From the NCBI GenBank assembly GCA_001871075.1, contig MNUP01000067.1, forward strand, positions 1 through 10,362: a DNA stretch of 10,362 nucleotides. The letters are read 5' to 3'. The translations under genes were made by a program, and so were the position numbers. The stretch is from Candidatus Desantisbacteria bacterium CG1_02_49_89 (GTDB lineage Bacteria > Desantisbacteria > UBA1551). Below are positions 2,581-10,362 of this stretch, piece by piece. A model generated the notes under the pieces. It was not told where the DNA came from, did not search any database, and saw only the letters and a program-made list of their open reading frames with translations. Position 1 is the stretch's first letter. Every line of letters begins with the position of its first letter.

Positions 2581-2656
2581 AACCGTATCCACCTACGAGG
2601 TGGGACAGGCTGGCACCCATTTCCAACCTCGCAGGTTGGAAATGGGTGGAACGGTT
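2581..2656. repeat. Compound inverted repeat able to fold as a three-way junction
   Basis: An outer stem AACCGT (2581-2586) pairs with ACGGTT (2651-2656). Inside are two hairpins: CCACC-TACGA-GGTGG (2589-2603), and a perfect 16-bp stem (2614-2629 with 2633-2648) with loop CGC. The right outer arm overlaps the stop codon of the MazF-like toxin (2655-2657), so the structure sits at the very 3' end of the toxin transcript. It could protect or end that message, though it lacks a U-tract, or it may be an inserted mobile repeat. Confidence 0.7.
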
Positions 2657-3008
2657 AAAGTTCGCGGGGATCTATCAGGAGATGGATACCTTTTATAATT
2701 TCAATTACGCGCTGCCTGGACAGGGTCCCTATCTTCTCAATAAGCATTGATTTGTCAACAGTAACAATCTGGGATATATTTACTACACTGCTTTTTGGCA
2801 GGTTAGCTTCGCCTTTAGTAAGCAATACGTTCCCGGGAGAACCTGCCCTCTGAAGTTTTGACGTCAGAAGACAGGCAACAACCGTATTAATGGGACTGTG
2901 GTTGAATATATCACTTTGGATGATAGTGATTGGGTGGCGATAGCCTGGCTCTGAACCTATGGGCCTTCCAAGAAAAGCCCAAAAGACATCGCCCTGATTA
3001 ATTACCAT
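2655..3008 (-). CDS. MazF/PemK-like endoribonuclease toxin
   Basis: The protein has 117 residues, typical of MazF. This family cuts mRNA and sometimes rRNA or tRNA at short single-stranded motifs and stops growth unless bound by its antitoxin. Family features visible are the N-terminal GDVFWAFLG, the GSEPGYRHP segment with the conserved Arg (R24), the strand NTVVACLLTS ending in T49/S50, and the later hydrophobic strand SSVVNISQIVTVDK before a C-terminal helix. ATG at 3008 overlaps the end of the antitoxin gene by 7 bases (ATGGTAA), with a purine-rich GGAGGGG immediately upstream as ribosome binding site. This is classic translational coupling in a type II toxin-antitoxin operon. The catalytic Arg and Ser/Thr are intact, so the toxin looks functional. 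Target specificity cannot be read from the sequence. Confidence 0.92.
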   Translation of the reverse strand: MVINQGDVFWAFLGRPIGSEPGYRHPITIIQSDIFNHSPINTVVACLLTSKLQRAGSPGNVLLTKGEANLPKSSVVNISQIVTVDKSMLIEKIGTLSRQRVIEIIKGIHLLIDPREL

Positions 3009-3256
3009 TCCCCCTCCGCTATTTTTCTGCTTTGTTCGGTTATTATCCTTAACAATTTCTTCTCCTTAGCGGTGGGAGGAGTGCTGTAAACGGCATTGAG
3101 CTGGTTCACGATCTGTTTATTCTTCTGCCTTTCCAGGAAATCCTCTATCGCCTTTTCAAAAAGGTTGCTTCTCGGCATACGCCTTTTTCTGGCGATGGAA
3201 TCCATCTCCTCCAAAAGATCTTCCTTAATAGATATCGCGGTTTTTACCTTAGCCAT
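3002..3256 (-). CDS. Ribbon-helix-helix (CopG/MazE-like) antitoxin
   Basis: The protein has 84 residues. Residues 1-45 form a ribbon-helix-helix DNA-binding domain: a short beta strand (KVKTAISI), helix A (KEDLLEEMDSIARKR), a turn at MPRSN and helix B (LFEKAIEDFLERQK). The C-terminal part (46-84), with KEKKLLRIITEQSRKIAEGEW, is probably the flexible toxin-binding tail. ATG at 3256 has a full AAAGGAGGT site 7 bases upstream. It is the first gene of a two-gene operon with the overlapping MazF-like toxin. Antitoxins of this kind bind their own promoter as dimers, and an inverted repeat suitable for this overlaps the -10 box. Its role as antitoxin is inferred from the fold, the order and the overlap. 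Confidence 0.9.
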   Translation of the reverse strand: MAKVKTAISIKEDLLEEMDSIARKRRMPRSNLFEKAIEDFLERQKNKQIVNQLNAVYSTPPTAKEKKLLRIITEQSRKIAEGEW

Positions 3257-3357: not shown

Positions 3358-4617
3358 CTACACAGTTTTTCGGGCGTGATAAATCACGCCCCTGCTCTGA
3401 CTCTCTGAATCTGTGACTCTTTGACTCTGAACTTCTTTTGTGTATGCGAGGATCTCGTCCGCGGCTTTCTTAAACCCGCCGGCCTCGCGGAAACTGTCCC
3501 CTATTTTCTTCGCACCATTCCTGTAATTTTCGTCTGACATGATCCTTAATGAAGCCTCAAGCAAATTACGCGGGCTGACCTTTTTCGGCATAATGTAAAC
3601 CCCTGCTTTCAGCTGCACAAGCCGCTTTGCTATCATAAGATTTTCTATCTGCTGGGGTATTATAAGCAGCGGAACCCCGTAGAACAGGGATTCGTTCACG
3701 CTATTCATCCCGCCGTGCGATATGAAAAGGCCTGCCTTCTGCAGGATCTCCAGCTGCGGCACGAAATTGCGGACGATGAAGTTATCCGGGATCGCGCCGA
3801 GGTCCGATATGTTCACCATGTCGCCTGCTGAAAGCACAACGAGAAGATCTTTTCCGCCGAACGCCTGGAAGCATTTGCAATAGAAATCAGGATCGTCAAG
3901 CACCGAGCCCAGCGAAATATATATTACCTTTTTGCCTTCCAGTTCCTGGTACGGGAAACCCGGGTCCTTTTCCCTTTCAGAGATAGATGTGCCTACGAAC
4001 TTGAACGCGTCCCCTAATTTTTTACTGCCCGGCTGGAAATACCTGGAATTGAAGATCACGTTCAGGCCCTCGAAATTCATGAGCGTGTCCTGCAATTCCA
4101 TCCGGATGCCGTATTTCCTGCTGAACAGCCGCGCGTATTTCAAATATTGAAGGTAGTAACTGAACCCTTTCAGCACGAGCAAAGGGAAGGTAAAAACAAA
4201 ATCAGGTGACATAAACAGTATTTCATTATTCAGCACGAACGTGGACATCGTGTTAACTGCTTTCTTCTTCAGCTGGCCGGCTATTATCCTGCCCCATATA
4301 GCTACCGAGTCATGTATTATATAATCGGGATCGTCGCGCCTTACCTCGTCAATATTCCGCAGCACCAGCTCTTCAGACGCCTCAGCCACAAGCCCTATGA
4401 CCTTTACCGGATTTTTCGCTATCTGGCGCAGGTCTTTTTTCGCGAACGAGAATTGATACTGCCTGAACTCGGCGCCGGTTGCCTCAACAGCTCTGCGGAA
4501 CGGCTCGTCGCTGTAATAGATGATCTTCTCTCCCCTGCTCTTCAGTTCCTTAACGAGCGGCAGAGTGGGGTTTGTGTGGCCGTGCTCTGGCATGCTCAGG
4601 TAAACAACCTTAGCCAA
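3358..4617 (-). CDS. GT1 family (MGT/YjiC-like) glycosyltransferase
   Basis: This is a 419-residue GT-B fold enzyme that would move a sugar from a nucleotide donor to a small hydrophobic acceptor such as a lipid, polyketide or flavonoid-like compound, in the cytoplasm. The N-terminal acceptor domain starts MAKVVYLSMPEHGHTNPTLP, in which one of H12/H14 is the expected catalytic base. The C-terminal donor domain has YISLGSV, then PQLEILQKAGLFISHGG (H301) and MNSVNESLFYGVPLLIIPQQ, the usual nucleotide-sugar site. The start is TTG: AAGGAG lies 5 bases upstream and the family N-terminus begins exactly here. The natural fold probably ends near EILAYTKE; the last 25 or so residues (VQSQRVTDSES...IYHARKTV) are encoded by two repeats. 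The substrate is unknown; no biosynthetic cluster is adjacent. Its neighbour upstream is the giant secreted protein, across 260 bp of repeats. Confidence 0.9.
   Translation of the reverse strand: MAKVVYLSMPEHGHTNPTLPLVKELKSRGEKIIYYSDEPFRRAVEATGAEFRQYQFSFAKKDLRQIAKNPVKVIGLVAEASEELVLRNIDEVRRDDPDYIIHDSVAIWGRIIAGQLKKKAVNTMSTFVLNNEILFMSPDFVFTFPLLVLKGFSYYLQYLKYARLFSRKYGIRMELQDTLMNFEGLNVIFNSRYFQPGSKKLGDAFKFVGTSISEREKDPGFPYQELEGKKVIYISLGSVLDDPDFYCKCFQAFGGKDLLVVLSAGDMVNISDLGAIPDNFIVRNFVPQLEILQKAGLFISHGGMNSVNESLFYGVPLLIIPQQIENLMIAKRLVQLKAGVYIMPKKVSPRNLLEASLRIMSDENYRNGAKKIGDSFREAGGFKKAADEILAYTKEVQSQRVTDSESQSRGVIYHARKTV
3372..3391. repeat. GGGCGTGA-TAAA-TCACGCCC palindrome inside a gene's 3' end
   Basis: The arms are 8 bases with loop TAAA. 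A near-identical copy is at 4773-4790 and a degenerate relative at 2491-2511. Here it is coding and gives part of the glycosyltransferase tail (GVIYHA). Confidence 0.75.
3395..3435. repeat. GACTCT-type imperfect short tandem repeat in coding sequence
   Basis: About 40 bp are built from units near GACTCT/GACTCTG with a 7-8 base spacing. The tract encodes the VQSQRVTDSESQS part of the glycosyltransferase C-terminus and directly adjoins the palindrome at 3372-3391. It has the same low-complexity style as the AACTTTC repeats in the LamG gene. Confidence 0.6.
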
Positions 4618-4631: not shown

Positions 4632-4669
4632 GCAGAGCCCCAAAGGGATCCCTTCGGGACAAGCTCTGC
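4632..4669. repeat. Inverted repeat in the 260-bp spacer (GCAGAGC arms)
   Basis: GCAGAGC (4632-4638) pairs with GCTCTGC (4663-4669), and the interior also folds partly (CCCAAAGGGATCCC and its surroundings). It begins 4 bp from the Shine-Dalgarno site of the glycosyltransferase and would form in its mRNA leader. Confidence 0.55.
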
Positions 4670-4877: not shown

Positions 4878-7800
4878 TTATTTTTCTGAGAGCTTAATAT
4901 AATCAACTTCAATGGAAACGTCAGGCTCGGAGCAGGGATCAAAACGCAGGCCGATTATAGTGCCGGCCCAAAGCTCGTTCTCCCGCACATTAAGTTTTAT
5001 CTCGTGGAATTTATTGTCTCCAGGAATGTCAAATTGTATGCTCGCGGGCTCGTTCATATCAGGGGTCTGCTTGGTCGCCCAGAATATCTGGGATTTGGCG
5101 TCCTTGCTTGCCTTAGCGCTTAGTATCATGAAAGGATATTTCTTCGCGGCCGTTTCCATCGGAGGCCCGTTGAACGCGGGGTCGTTGTCCACGGAAAGAC
5201 CCTTCAAACACCCGCTCTCTATTCTTACGTCTGCAAGGCCCATCATTCCGCCCCAACCGTCATCCGCGGTATTGAATTCCCAGACTATCCCGTCCCTCGC
5301 CTTCTGCGGCCCGGGGGAATCATATGGCCCAAGCCCCACATCCACAGGCGCGACGTCAATATGTTCTTTCGGAGCTTTCGTGAACACGTCCCTTATCGCG
5401 TCTAAGTAACCAAACCCGAATTCCTTGTGCGGCTCAATATACGAGCCTTCACCGAACTCGTTCCACGCCTCTATGAACACCATTTTAAGCTTCGGGGATC
5501 TCTCGCTTTTGTCAAGAAGGTCTTTCGCGTCCTGCAGATGCTTCTTGAAATTCTGCGGTGTCCTTCCGCTTAAAACCGTTGTGGCAGGCCCGTGCCACGG
5601 CCGGGCGTCCCACCCGCCGCACACAGGCACGATGAACTTTATCCTGTCGTCTCCCATATAACCTGCCCAGCTCTCAGCGAACCTTTTCGTATTCTCCTCA
5701 TAAGGCATCATGCCGAAAACCCAGTTATAAGCCGAGACCGCGTCATAGCCTTCATTTACAAGATTGGTAACCTCGCCTTCGTTATAACCGCCTGAGCACG
5801 CGACCATATACAGCCCGTTAAAACCGTTCTCTTTACACAGGTCGCGCATCTTATCGAACGCGGCATTCACTTTCTCCGAGCCCATATCCTCCCTGAACCT
5901 CCAGGGGCTGAATATGACCATAACCGGCTTATTGTCCACTTTCAGGTAGTTATCCCTTTTGAAATAATTGTCGATCCAGAACTTCGTCACATTTCGAAGA
6001 TCTTTTTCAGACGAAGTGCCTTTCGGGTTATGGTTCGCCCAGAGCAGGCAGAACTTGAGCTGGTTGCCGTATTTTGATTTGAAAAGCCCGTCCAGGGCGT
6101 GCTCAAGAGACCTTGAACCCCTTGACCAGTACCAGTCGTAAATAAAGAAGGTAACCCCGTGCTCAACGCACCACTTAACATGCCAGTCCGCTACCTCAGG
6201 CTCTCCTTCCCTGTACCAGCCAAGCACCGGCTCCCTTTCAGGATACGGCATTATTTTCTGCCAGCCGTAGTGCACGCCCGGTTTCCAGCCGGGGAAATAA
6301 TACACCCCGACCTGATAATCGGTTTTCACTGCCTGCGGCGCAGGCACGTAATCAGCTTTCGGAAGGTTTAAGGAAGGCAGAAATTCAATGACCGCGTCCC
6401 CCTTGATCTCCGGAACACCCGCTCCTTTTACTGAAACAGACACAGTGTCTTTGATGGGAGAATCAGCCCTGACCTTCCACTCAAACTTTTCCTCATCGTT
6501 GAATTCAAGGCCTGAGATCTTCTGGGCCGGGCCTGAATCAAGCAGCTGGATGCCTTTGGGCAGAGCGATCTTCGCTTCCACATTCTTGACAAACCCGCCC
6601 CTGTTATTCACAAGCGCGATGACCTTGCCGTTGATCCCGGCACGGTTCACCGCTCCGGTAAGCCCGATATATTTCAGTTCCATTTCCGCTGCCTGCGGAA
6701 CTTCGGGGCAGACCTTTATGTAGTCAACCTGCACCGACGCGTCCTTTGCGTCGGTAGGAGTGAAATTCATAAGGTAAAGGCTGCCTGTCCACTTCTGCGC
6801 TGCCATCGGAATATTATAAAGGTGCATTTTTCCATCCGCTTTAAGCGGAATGGAAATCCTGTCCGAACCTGTGCTTGTCACGTAGAACATGGAGCCGTTC
6901 GTCCCCTTGTCAACAGCCATCCTGATCGCGAGATAACCGTTCCCCTTTGTGGCTACATTCAAAGACTGGTTCATAAGCAGAGGGCTTGCTGAAACGGTCT
7001 TGAACGAAAGTATCCCGTCCTTCAGCGTAAGCTTGTCTATGCCTTCTGAGATCTGCCAGTCTCCGGTATCCTTGGTGAAATCGAAGTCCGCCTTCGTGTT
7101 CTTGCCAGGAGCTATCTGCACTATCTTTATGTAATCAACTTCGTATTCGCACTTGTCGTGAGAATCAAAGCGCATAAGTATTATTTTCTTCTCGTCCTTC
7201 CACGCCGGGAAGATCCTGTAGATATGGAACTCTTTATCCCCTATAACTGAAAAAGGAGTTTCCTTGCCGGGAGTAAAACCGCCGTATTGCGTTTCAAAGG
7301 TATTGGACCAGAAGAACTCGTCGCCCCCGTCCGAGCTTGCCTTCATCCTGATCTCAATGAACTGCATTGAATTCGCGGGGAATTCAAACCCCGAGCCTGT
7401 CAGGAACGGATCCCAGTCCACGGTCTTGAATTTCAGCATGCCGCCTGACACCTCAACGTCGCTCATATGCCCGTTCGCTGACCATCCTTCCAGATCGCCT
7501 TCTTTGTTAAAATTCCATTCAACCAGAGTTCCGGGTTTTGCCTCTATCACGGGTTTTTCCTCCTTTTTCTCAACTTTCAACTTTGAACTTTCAACTTTTA
7601 ACTGCGAAGCAGGAGGAGCAGCAGACTTGTATCGCTCCTCGATCTCCTGCGGAGTAAGGGCGCGGCTGTATATCCTCAGTTCATCCATCAAGCCAGTGAA
7701 CGCGGGCGTTCCGGCTCCCGGCGCGAAATCGCCGATTATCAGGTCACGCTGGGACTGAAAGATCTCGCCTGTTCTGGGCATAGAGCCGGCTTCCTTCCCG

Positions 7801-9731
7801 TTAATGTAAACGCGCATTGTCTTACCGTCATATGTGCCGGCTATGTAGGACCACTCACCGAAATTATAACCTGTTGCGCTGCCCATCCCGCCTGACCATT
7901 CTTTTTCCTCAGTAGGGATCTGCCATGCTATTATATTATCCCCGCCGCATGTAAGCCTGTACCCCTCTTTGCCGCCTGCTACCTTGTTCACTATCTGCTT
8001 ATCTCCCTGCGGCACGTCTCCCTTTATCCATACTTCAACCGAGATCTGCGCGGTTGGATTCAGGTCATCCGCGTCAGGGATGATAACGCATGTCTTATTT
8101 TCCGCGTTGAATGCGAGAGCCGATCCGGAAATCCCCTTTGCCCACTCGCCATTCATAACTTCCCCGTCGTGCCCGTTCCCGGACGCATCCCCAGCACTCT
8201 CACCGCTTCCCTCGTCAAACTTCCAGTAACCTACAAGACCTTTATTTGACACTGATTCACGCTGTTCCTTCTTTTCTTCTTTTTTCTCACTTTTGCCTTT
8301 TACATTTTGCACTTTGACTTTTGACTTGTCCTCTGCTATCGGAACCCCATCTTTCTTGAACAGCTCCACGATCTCCGTGTTACCCAATGCGTAATTATAA
8401 ATTTTAACCTCATCAATAATGCCGATAAATCCCTGGCCTATATGGACCGGCGCTTCGCCCGGGCTCGAACTTCCTTTTCTTTCCGCTTCTTTCATCTCGC
8501 CGTTTACCCACATCTGCAGCTTTGCCCCGTCCCATACCGCGAGGACATGCGACCATCTCTCGACCTGAGGTACGATGTTGGCGGTGCGCGGCTCCCAGGA
8601 ACCATCAAGGAATACGAAAATGCTGAAAGGATTACCTTCCTCAGGAGGGTTCACGCGCAGCTGGTATTCTTTTTCCTTCACCACTATCATGCGCCAGCCG
8701 TTTATATCCGTGGGAAAAACCCAGGCTTCTATGGAGATCTCCGCGCCTAACTGCAAGTCCTCAGAGCTGGGTATCTCTACGAATTGTTCTCCTGACACTG
8801 AAATGGCTTTGCCGGATTTCCCGTTGACCCACTCAGCTCCTGCTACAGCTCCGTCATTCCCCCTGCCTGACGAATCCTTAGCTTCTTCCCCGGCTCCCTC
8901 GTCAAACTTCCAATACCCAACCAGTTCCTTTTTAGACACAGATTTACGCTGTTCCTTCTTTTCTTCTTTCTTTTCAACTTTCAACTTTGAACTTTCAACT
9001 TTCAACTGCGAAGCAGGAGGTGCAATCTTCTTGTATTGTTCCATAAGCTCCTGCTGAGTAAGCGCGCGGTTATATATCTTAACCTCATCAACTATTCCCT
9101 CAAAGAATGCCCTTTCGTGCCCTTTAGTAAAAGTCCCTATGTAAAGGCTATCCGGGGAAGGATTGGCAGCTCCGGGCCTGTCTCCGACCGCTTTTTCCTC
9201 GCCGTTAACGAATATATGCATTTTCTTGCCGTCAAAAGTACCCGCGACAAACACCCACTGGCCCATAGGAACAATATAGCCGTTTGTGGCAATTGAATGG
9301 CTCCAGGAAGTGACAGGGACCTGCCATACAATAGAGCCCCCGGCAAGCCCAAGCCTGTACCCGTAGGTTGCTTCGCCGAATATGTTATTTATCATATACT
9401 TATCGTTCTGGCCCGGAACGTCTGTCCAGAACCATAGCTCAACCGTGAACTGGTCTGTCGGCGTGAGCGCTTCATTGCCCTGCACCTCAACCGCGCCGCC
9501 TTTGAACGAGAGCGCGTTCCCTGAAACACCCTTCACCTCTTCCGCGTCAAGCACTGTCCCGTCAAACCCGTTGCCTGACAGGTCAGACACCTGTTCCCCG
9601 TCTACCTTGTCGAAGGACCAGTACGCAACCAGGCCTTTTTCGGCGGCCTGGCAGTTAAAAGTTGAAAGTTGAAAGTTGAAAGTTAATACCAATACCAAAA
9701 CTAAATAATACCACAGACTGGATTTTTTCAT
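4878..9731 (-). CDS. Giant secreted LamG / WbsX (GH99-like) modular protein
   Basis: The protein has 1617 residues. ATG at 9731 is preceded by AAGGGGGG. A signal peptide covers about residues 1-29. Three LamG-type beta-sandwich domains follow at about 31-235, 270-460 and 498-703; each starts near LVxYWxFD and ends near DEVKIYNRALT. Two lysine/glutamate-rich linkers join the LamG domains and a third follows the last one. Then come two beta-sandwich modules ending in VDYIKI/V (about 734-873 and 880-1010), a CARDB/NEW3-like module (about 1017-1125) and a WbsX/GH99-like TIM barrel from about 1139 to 1450. The barrel has YYFPGW, FFIYDWYW (D1199) and the hallmark EAWNEFGEGSYIEP (acidic residues E1421, E1425, E1428). 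A third VDYIKL module ends the chain. The role is probably binding and cleavage of an external or cell-surface glycan; the substrate is unknown. No lipobox or sortase-type anchor is seen. LamG1 and LamG3 resemble each other more than LamG2. Confidence 0.88.
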   Translation of the reverse strand: MKKSSLWYYLVLVLVLTFNFQLSTFNCQAAEKGLVAYWSFDKVDGEQVSDLSGNGFDGTVLDAEEVKGVSGNALSFKGGAVEVQGNEALTPTDQFTVELWFWTDVPGQNDKYMINNIFGEATYGYRLGLAGGSIVWQVPVTSWSHSIATNGYIVPMGQWVFVAGTFDGKKMHIFVNGEEKAVGDRPGAANPSPDSLYIGTFTKGHERAFFEGIVDEVKIYNRALTQQELMEQYKKIAPPASQLKVESSKLKVEKKEEKKEQRKSVSKKELVGYWKFDEGAGEEAKDSSGRGNDGAVAGAEWVNGKSGKAISVSGEQFVEIPSSEDLQLGAEISIEAWVFPTDINGWRMIVVKEKEYQLRVNPPEEGNPFSIFVFLDGSWEPRTANIVPQVERWSHVLAVWDGAKLQMWVNGEMKEAERKGSSSPGEAPVHIGQGFIGIIDEVKIYNYALGNTEIVELFKKDGVPIAEDKSKVKVQNVKGKSEKKEEKKEQRESVSNKGLVGYWKFDEGSGESAGDASGNGHDGEVMNGEWAKGISGSALAFNAENKTCVIIPDADDLNPTAQISVEVWIKGDVPQGDKQIVNKVAGGKEGYRLTCGGDNIIAWQIPTEEKEWSGGMGSATGYNFGEWSYIAGTYDGKTMRVYINGKEAGSMPRTGEIFQSQRDLIIGDFAPGAGTPAFTGLMDELRIYSRALTPQEIEERYKSAAPPASQLKVESSKLKVEKKEEKPVIEAKPGTLVEWNFNKEGDLEGWSANGHMSDVEVSGGMLKFKTVDWDPFLTGSGFEFPANSMQFIEIRMKASSDGGDEFFWSNTFETQYGGFTPGKETPFSVIGDKEFHIYRIFPAWKDEKKIILMRFDSHDKCEYEVDYIKIVQIAPGKNTKADFDFTKDTGDWQISEGIDKLTLKDGILSFKTVSASPLLMNQSLNVATKGNGYLAIRMAVDKGTNGSMFYVTSTGSDRISIPLKADGKMHLYNIPMAAQKWTGSLYLMNFTPTDAKDASVQVDYIKVCPEVPQAAEMELKYIGLTGAVNRAGINGKVIALVNNRGGFVKNVEAKIALPKGIQLLDSGPAQKISGLEFNDEEKFEWKVRADSPIKDTVSVSVKGAGVPEIKGDAVIEFLPSLNLPKADYVPAPQAVKTDYQVGVYYFPGWKPGVHYGWQKIMPYPEREPVLGWYREGEPEVADWHVKWCVEHGVTFFIYDWYWSRGSRSLEHALDGLFKSKYGNQLKFCLLWANHNPKGTSSEKDLRNVTKFWIDNYFKRDNYLKVDNKPVMVIFSPWRFREDMGSEKVNAAFDKMRDLCKENGFNGLYMVACSGGYNEGEVTNLVNEGYDAVSAYNWVFGMMPYEENTKRFAESWAGYMGDDRIKFIVPVCGGWDARPWHGPATTVLSGRTPQNFKKHLQDAKDLLDKSERSPKLKMVFIEAWNEFGEGSYIEPHKEFGFGYLDAIRDVFTKAPKEHIDVAPVDVGLGPYDSPGPQKARDGIVWEFNTADDGWGGMMGLADVRIESGCLKGLSVDNDPAFNGPPMETAAKKYPFMILSAKASKDAKSQIFWATKQTPDMNEPASIQFDIPGDNKFHEIKLNVRENELWAGTIIGLRFDPCSEPDVSIEVDYIKLSEK
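7571..7604 (-). repeat. 34-bp AACTTTC-type repeat encoding linker 3
   Basis: On the coding strand it gives QLKVESSKLKVE after the third LamG domain. It differs from the 8975-9008 copy at one base of 34, much closer than the LamG domains around them. Confidence 0.8.
8291..8327 (-). repeat. TTTTGACTTT-type low-complexity repeat encoding linker 2
   Basis: It encodes KSKVKVQNVKGKS between LamG2 and LamG3. It is similar in style to the AACTTTC repeat but different in sequence, and sits at the equivalent linker position. It is followed by the KKEEKKEQR segment shared with linker 1. Confidence 0.6.
8975..9008 (-). repeat. 34-bp AACTTTC-type repeat encoding linker 1
   Basis: It encodes QLKVESSKLKVE between LamG1 and LamG2. 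It matches 7571-7604 at 33 of 34 bases. Confidence 0.8.
9652..9686 (+). repeat. Same AACTTTC-type repeat, inverted, encoding the signal peptide end
   Basis: The coding strand reads AACTTTC units and encodes TFNFQLSTFNC of the signal peptide. Its reverse complement matches the linker-3 copy at 32 of 34 positions, so the repeat lies in the opposite orientation to the linker copies of the same gene. Confidence 0.8.
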
Positions 9732-9841: not shown

Positions 9842-10156
9842 TTATTTTGAAACTACACAACGAAATCCTTCGCATGTCGTAGGTTCTTTATATACTGTTT
9901 TATACCAAGGTCGCATTTTAAATCTTATTGCGGAACGGCAATTGTCTGCATTATCTTTCCAACCACCCCCACGCTGAACATATAAACTACCCTGTATTGG
10001 TCCCAATGGATTTTGGGCAGGTGAATATTTATAATAATCATCATCATAATTATCAGAACAAAATTCTCTAACATTCCCATGCATATCATATATACCCCAA
10101 GCATTGGGTTTTTTCTGCCCGACAGGATGTGTCATATCTCTAGTATGGTGTCGCAT
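9842..10156 (-). pseudogene. 5'-truncated SUMF1/FGE-like (formylglycine-generating enzyme family) gene
   Basis: Only the C-terminal portion of a SUMF1-fold protein remains, about 95 residues where the full domain is 200 or more. Family signatures are HPVGQKKPNAWGIYDMHGNV, then VQRGGGWKDNADNCRSAIRF and the end CEGFRCVV. Of the two active-site cysteines of true formylglycine-generating enzymes, only the second has an equivalent (NCRSA), so even the intact gene was probably a generic SUMF1-like protein. The first nine residues, MRHHTRDMT, are mostly not family sequence: homology stops near 10140, exactly where a repeat array starts. Upstream in the same frame a stop occurs at 10190-10192 inside the repeat. 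The gene is AT-rich compared with the LamG gene. The missing 5' half may lie beyond the right edge, interrupted by the array. Expression of the remnant is doubtful, since no clear ribosome binding site precedes the ATG. Confidence 0.8.
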
Positions 10157-10196
10157 AAATCCCTTGACATTTGATTCTGCTTTGAGTTGTCATTGC
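10140..10196. repeat. 57-bp direct repeat, copy 1
   Basis: It is identical to 10306-10362 except for one base (10153 G versus 10319 A), with a period of 166 bp. It contains the right half of the dyad element and the first 8 bases of the MITE-like element. It abuts the truncated SUMF1-like gene. Confidence 0.9.
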
Positions 10197-10275: not shown

Positions 10276-10339
10276 CAAATGTAAAGAACTGTTAGAGACA
10301 CCACACTAGTATGGTGTCACATAAATCCCTTGACATTTG
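10276..10339. repeat. 64-bp dyad-symmetric element between two MITE-like copies
   Basis: Two nested inverted repeats share one axis at 10307/10308. The outer arms CAAATGTAAAG (10276-10286) and CTTGACATTTG (10329-10339) match at 10 of 11. The inner 22 bases 10297-10318 (GACACCA...TGGTGTC around ACTAGT) match except for one pair. Copy 1 at 10140 keeps only the right half. Confidence 0.75.
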
Positions 10340-10362
10340 ATTCTGCTTTGAGTTGTCATTGC
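10306..10362. repeat. 57-bp direct repeat, copy 2 (to right edge)
   Basis: Second copy of 10140-10196. It ends at the window edge inside GTCATTGC, so a second MITE-like element probably starts here and the 166-bp unit probably continues. Confidence 0.85.

Follow-up and report, generated by a model that had tools for sequence, protein, structure and literature searches.

Dispersed heptad and octad arrays, and their proposed survival as parts of proteins, in a Desantisbacteria genome

INTRODUCTION

Short heptad repeats are known from several bacterial groups, their origin unexplained. Xanthomonas and Nostoc carry four-unit heptads of the sequence GGGNATC (PMC4692102). TAACTGA repeats, whose unit closes every frame of one strand with stops, occur in Beggiatoaceae and cyanobacteria, some of them in open reading frames (PMC4679880). 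In Geobacter metallireducens, which has GGACCGG and GTTGCTYN repeats, heptads are both intragenic and intergenic, and octad sites form pairs on opposing strands (PMC2700814).

Here we analyse a 10,362-bp stretch of DNA from Candidatus Desantisbacteria bacterium CG1_02_49_89 ('the window') together with other parts of its genome. The arrays found resemble those of Xanthomonas and Nostoc, Beggiatoaceae and Geobacter in having 7–8-bp units, about four units per array and a dispersed, mostly intergenic distribution with some copies in genes; in this genome they are dense enough in signal peptides and enzyme loops to be counted. A preliminary description of the window had noted a 34-bp repeat used in both orientations within one gene. 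Our reading, to which we assign a probability of about 0.78, is that this repeat belongs, as one family, to a dispersed class of heptad and octad arrays, and that copies surviving selection have become parts of proteins.

RESULTS

The window gene carries period-7 arrays in its putative signal peptide and linkers

The gene lies on the reverse strand (start 9731, end 4878) and encodes a predicted secreted modular protein of 1617 residues. Its product comprises, in order, a putative signal peptide, three LamG_3 domains, an unassigned region and a WbsX/GH99-like domain. PF13385 matches in three stretches (3e-76) and WbsX (PF14307) scores 124 bits (1.3e-35), above the cut-off of 25.1, whilst GH99 (PF16317), at 20.5 bits, falls below its cut-off of 33. 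The LamG_3 domains are joined by linkers rich in lysine and glutamate. The N-terminus, MKKSSLWYYLVLVLVLTFNFQLSTFNCQA followed by AEK, reads by eye as a Sec signal peptide, and related LamG proteins begin similarly.

Tandem Repeats Finder (TRF) detected arrays at four places in the gene, all read on the reverse strand. At 9653–9684, (AACTTTC)4-5 (period 7, 96% matches) encodes LTFNFQLSTFN at the end of the signal peptide, giving the N-terminus MKKSSLWYYLVLVLV-LTFNFQLSTFN-CQAAEK. In linker 1 (8972–9007, period 7) the A-rich strand is read and encodes QLKVESSKLKVE, as does the array of linker 3 (7570–7603, period 7), which has the same unit variant and matches that of linker 1 at 33/34 bases. Linker 2 holds a degenerate 7/14-bp array encoding KSKVKVQNVKGKSE (8289–8327, with a second TRF row at 8290–8327) of a different unit, of the CTTTTGC type. 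An octad member of the in-gene array class, (CTCTGACT)4, lies on the same strand at 3395–3428, where it encodes QSQRVTDSESQS close to the C-terminal end of the adjacent glycosyltransferase.

The three tracts of the preliminary description are thus where it placed them. The linker copies (7571–7604 and 8975–9008) agree at 33 of 34 bases, and the signal-peptide copy (9652–9686), reverse-complemented and shifted by one base, agrees at 32/34 with the first and 31/34 with the second; the translations, LTFNFQLSTFNC in the signal peptide and QLKVESSKLKVE in both linkers, also hold. A unique 34-mer was, however, ruled out: the tracts are an approximately 32-bp tandem array of a 7-bp unit, (AACTTTN)n, one heptad family among many, so that much of their likeness is the likeness of the unit.

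Several other elements lie in the window. A PemK/MazF-type toxin gene (2655–3256, reverse strand), with a ribbon-helix-helix antitoxin-type gene upstream, adjoins a RhuM/Fic fusion (1403–2506). At the contig end a 57-bp direct repeat, 98% identical, occupies 10140–10196 and 10306–10362, with dispersed-repeat-like sequence (CATTGCGAGCGACCAAAGGGAGCGTGGCAATCTC...) between its copies.

The two strands of the unit are not equivalent

Because translation runs through a 7-bp unit in every phase, the three frames of a given strand yield the same cyclic heptapeptide. For AACTTTC this is NFQLSTF, and the other strand has TGA in every frame. From this and from the composition of the in-gene arrays (below) we infer that the arrays are filtered by orientation, the T-rich sense being open and mildly hydrophobic and the A-rich sense polar and closed unless a unit varies. 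The earlier proposal that the repeat is open in both directions therefore applies to part of the set. The linker copies are open on the opposite strand because one of their units reads AACTTTG, which turns TGA into TCA; the signal-peptide copy, like a perfect (AACTTTC)n array, is closed there by stops in all three frames.

Arrays of many different units populate the genome

The assembly is in 150 contigs, from which a sample of 443,681 bases (∼444 kb) was chosen arbitrarily, and further contigs were chosen separately. TRF found 125 period-7 arrays in the 443,681 bases, against none in three dinucleotide shuffles, and 39 period-8 arrays, against 0.3 in shuffles. A search of the genome with the pattern AACTTTNAACTTTNAACT gave 26 matches (four for the reversed control), which collapse into 17 loci; three of these lie in the window and 14 elsewhere. 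Given these numbers the window repeat is not a chance occurrence, and the suggestion that it is dispersed is borne out genome-wide, on both strands and in both intergenic and coding DNA.

Dozens of units coexist, among them ACGACGT, AACTCAT, AAAGGTT, AAATTGT and AACAAGT, together with AATTATG (20 arrays in the sample) and the octad AACGTGTC (16 arrays). The period-7 arrays have a modal length of 31 bp, four units plus 3 bp, which is the exact length of 32 of the 125; in 49/125 the length is 3 modulo 7, the pattern to be expected if four units were bounded on both sides by a 3-bp core. Members of the window family share the body AGTT(RAAAGTT)4, about 32 bp long, as a direct, non-palindromic tandem array between unrelated flanks. 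The analysis turned up neither an enzyme that could disperse the arrays nor a target-site signature.

The density in this lineage is approximately one array per 3.5 kb. In G001, a distant relative from the same order, one period-7 array was present in the 156 kb sampled, and the expansion therefore appears to be specific to this lineage.

The best-surviving alternative is that nothing is dispersed and each array grew in place by slippage. The high diversity of units fits this, as does the finding, described below, that some in-gene arrays cause no net change in length relative to homologues. However, identical units are found at numerous sites, sharing body and length between unrelated flanks; AATTATG and an octad are repeated 20 and 16 times in the sample, and the lengths peak at 31 bp where slippage predicts a decay. 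We consider local expansion unlikely as the general explanation and prefer a dispersed class of arrays.

Most arrays lie outside genes, many of them close to gene ends

With genes called by a home-made codon-usage caller, which missed some starts, genes contain 30 of the 141 merged arrays and the other 111 lie outside, although called genes cover 80% of the sample. Among 103 intergenic arrays, 26 have a stop codon no more than 12 bp away, and eight have a start at that distance or less. The in-gene arrays occur mainly in two kinds of place, signal peptides and the surface loops of ordinary enzymes.

The proximity to gene ends raises the possibility that the arrays are protein- or RNA-binding regulatory sites whose coding copies are incidental, and such roles have been proposed for the TAACTGA repeats (PMC4679880) and the Geobacter heptads (PMC2700814). 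The very many unit sequences in one genome are ill-suited to a single binding protein, and we regard a primarily regulatory class as improbable, and less likely than local expansion.

Two arrangements of arrays may be recorded here. Arrays of the window unit lie exactly 4 bp past a stop codon, in one orientation, at L102:4945, L103:7765, L105:9837 and L108:6732. AATTATG-type arrays form inverted pairs ∼35–45 bp apart (L033:7681-7781, L034:3309-3406, L057:442-544 and L065:14937-15034), neighbouring pairs in the sample being inverted in 11 cases and direct in one; these are potential hairpins, comparable to the paired sites of Geobacter metallireducens.

In-gene arrays favour signal-peptide-like N-termini

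Complete genes of at least 120 codons from the arbitrary sample were divided into signal-peptide-like and other genes by a hydropathy rule rather than by SignalP. Strong 7-bp periodicity at codons 4–40 was present in 8/84 signal-peptide-like genes, with units that differ between genes, and in 3/223 other genes; two of these three appear to have a signal peptide downstream of a miscalled start. No 7-bp array was found at codons 60–96 or before the stop in any of the 307 genes, and periods of 5, 6 and 8–11 were absent from the N-termini of the 84 signal-peptide-like genes. Besides that of the window protein, the signal-peptide arrays, with units that differ, include MKKILLLIF-YFQLSAFSFQL-CRAE, MKKALLLLLVV-TFQLSALSFEL-ACAQ, MKKILLLLLVF-TLHVTRDTLHV-VYAES, SFV-LSPFTFHLSPS-LCEAS and MNKNIKIYLILGIL-TCNLSLVTCHC.

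In a set that includes contigs picked for carrying the window unit, signal-peptide arrays were more hydrophobic than other in-gene arrays (mean 0.42 versus −0.41, p = 0.001) and richer in T in the sense strand (0.38 versus 0.24, p = 0.0002). Use of the repeats in both signal peptides and linkers, as first proposed for the window gene, is real and far commoner than that gene shows. Orthologues of two of the signal-peptide-array genes were searched for in G001 and not found. Those of a thioredoxin-like gene, ApbE and the L049 gene aligned poorly in the signal peptide, and the ApbE and thioredoxin-like genes gave no clean case of presence or absence there.

Signal peptides of the TTTCAAC type also occur in Bacteroidota, for example MKHTRLLFVILFSTFNFQLSTFNALSAQ, MKRLIFLLLTFNFQLSTFNSLRAQ and MKNRLLLLVILSTFNFQLSTVSSQ. 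GTDB genomes were scanned for ATGAAR directly ahead of the array, a search that shows existence and not frequency. Among the 80 loci listed, 22 stay open for 20 codons past the array, and approximately 10 read as signal peptides of mostly unrelated Bacteroidota proteins. A literature search found no mention of TFNFQLS-like peptide strings.

Arrays in enzymes vary between lineages

In-frame arrays were also found in LeuRS, CarA, CarB, MurF, a phosphomannomutase and LeuC, and in proteins reading as HypF, PyrK, ThiL and TsaB (names assigned by eye). Compared with homologues in the PDB, the first LeuRS array and those of CarA, CarB and MurF are net insertions, whereas the second LeuRS array, that of LeuC and one in the phosphomannomutase add no net length; some arrays may therefore represent overwriting or local mutation rather than insertion.

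The LeuRS of G001 (564/807 identical, 70%) is without exactly the nine residues of the array, SVQCPVSSV, and its CarB (919/1070 identical, 86%) is ∼7 residues shorter at the array. Presence of the array class thus differs between lineages at LeuRS and CarB, among the few genes compared. The CarB gene (L112:9893-13183, reverse strand) has a second insertion of ∼20 residues, in the RLSTFQSSNKVLSKTGS region, which is not an obvious heptad array and is missing from the 86%-identical G001 orthologue (L290).

The signal-peptide arrays could instead be phase-variable contingency loci, slippage of a 7-bp unit shifting the frame and switching the secreted protein on or off. The unit is not a multiple of three and sits in signal-peptide codons, and the CTCTT repeats of the Neisseria opa leader are a precedent (PMC3960869). 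Arrays also occur, however, in LeuRS, CarB, CarA and MurF, whose loss of expression would be expected to be costly or lethal, and so are not confined to dispensable surface or modification genes. Most arrays are intergenic, and most have a fixed short length and imperfect units. We judge phase variation improbable, more so than a regulatory role, and retain the reading of dispersed arrays filtered by selection.

Arrays and a duplicated module in the LamG family

Among five related LamG proteins of the same genome, one has a signal peptide free of arrays, while the signal peptides of the other four carry arrays of differing heptads at a single position. The array-free member begins MKKTIIFIILILSAFSCFAAEE followed by GLVAHWRFD; in the array-bearing members MKKSSLWYYLVLVLVLTFNFQLSTFNCQAAEK and MKKFNPIFFICLLLVLTLHLTPCTLHCYAAER are each followed by GLVAYWSFD, MKKTFVFLAVVLTFNVQLLTFNCFSEVK by GLVGYWSFD and MKKEFGLVAVLVVCCLVSGVWCLAAEKEK by GLVGWWKFD. 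The signal peptides with an array are 6–10 residues longer. The related LamG protein L097 has an array-free signal peptide of 22 residues, compared with 32 in the window protein. A sixth relative (L256) has the fragment LTFNF only, without a full array, adjoining an element of the GGATCCCTTTGGG type.

This second dispersed element, GGATCCCTTTGGG/CCCAAAGGGATCC, has 16 copies in 764 kb and occurs inside or beside heptad arrays in coding sequence at L100:678-734, in the L256 signal peptide and at L106:7796-7870, once as two tandem copies, so that signal peptides and a linker contain repeats nested in one another. Similar sequence is present at 4639–4660 of the window.

Within the window gene, linkers 1 and 3 belong to a 131-nt direct repeat that is 81% identical, and their arrays occupy homologous positions of a duplicated LamG-linker module with shared flanks (APPAS...KKEEK). 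One insertion followed by duplication of the module would account for that pair, and the two copies may descend from a single insertion that preceded the duplication, although their arrays are better conserved than the flank. The preliminary description had favoured recent insertion or conversion over shared domain ancestry for the copies. Purely shared module ancestry was rejected for the signal-peptide copy, which is inverted and outside the duplicated module, but may apply to linkers 1 and 3. That the window arrays are simply inherited parts of the module, with no dispersal, fits the duplicated segment and a LamG-side flank matching at 46/60 bases, but is the least probable of the alternatives given the inverted signal-peptide copy, the window unit at 14 loci elsewhere and arrays matching at 33/34.

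An orthologue of the whole window protein was sought in G001 and not found, and presence or absence was therefore examined in other genes, as above. Regions matching the C-terminal half of the window protein occur in L047:5563-18366, an open reading frame of 4268 residues with many repeated extracellular-type domains, and at C72, C49, C143, C2 and C135. Two arrays in related repeat domains of L047 and L096 suggested at first that one unit had replaced another at a single site, but array-free sibling repeats of equal length make this ambiguous.

DISCUSSION

The class comprises 7-bp, and also 8-bp, units, typically four with a 3–4-bp core, in arrays of ∼31–32 bp. On the reading we prefer, arrays would enter many sites by some copy or expansion process and selection would remove those that break genes, so that the in-gene survivors would be in-frame, stop-free arrays at positions where sequence change is tolerated. 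A T-rich sense would supply a mildly hydrophobic NFQLSTF, acceptable in a signal peptide after its hydrophobic core and ahead of the cleavage region. An A-rich sense would supply the polar KLKVESS, acceptable in linkers or surface loops if a variant unit removes TGA. The window gene would have gathered arrays of both kinds.

On this reading arrays have come to lie in genes many times, above all where secretion signals are encoded, and dispersed repeats have time and again been turned into protein sequence. More speculatively, a process that writes many four-unit heptads across bacterial genomes could be a recurrent source of signal-peptide segments and linkers, acting independently in Bacteroidota; we hold this possible rather than likely. 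If true, repeat insertion would be a recurrent way for proteins to gain or rebuild secretion signals. The density of arrays here, set beside a same-order genome that is nearly array-free where sampled, opens two questions to testing: by what means four-unit arrays spread, and how frequently repeats from noncoding DNA turn into a working part of a protein. In genomes of this kind, near-identical signal peptides or linkers need not imply homology.

In the limited literature searched (PMC4692102, PMC4679880 and PMC2700814) we found no report of many different heptads concentrated in signal peptides. Those papers each follow one or a few units per genome, whereas dozens coexist here, and the in-gene copies here fall mostly in signal peptides and enzyme loops. 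Rickettsia palindromic elements are likewise dispersed, in frame in unrelated metabolic protein genes and variable between species, but are palindromes of ∼150 bp (PMC10969869), unlike the ∼31-bp direct tandem arrays of many units with a preference for signal peptides. The Neisseria opa CTCTT repeat is also a short tandem repeat not divisible by three that encodes part of a leader peptide (PMC3960869); its number varies and expression is switched, whereas the arrays here are short, imperfect and present in many unrelated genes, including those of essential enzymes. The tandem repeats of Borgs similarly are lineage-specific, create new protein segments and are enriched in extracellular proteins. 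Their coding units, however, are multiples of three that form disordered regions (PMC9879509), whilst the 7–8-bp units described here contribute pieces of ∼9–12 residues.
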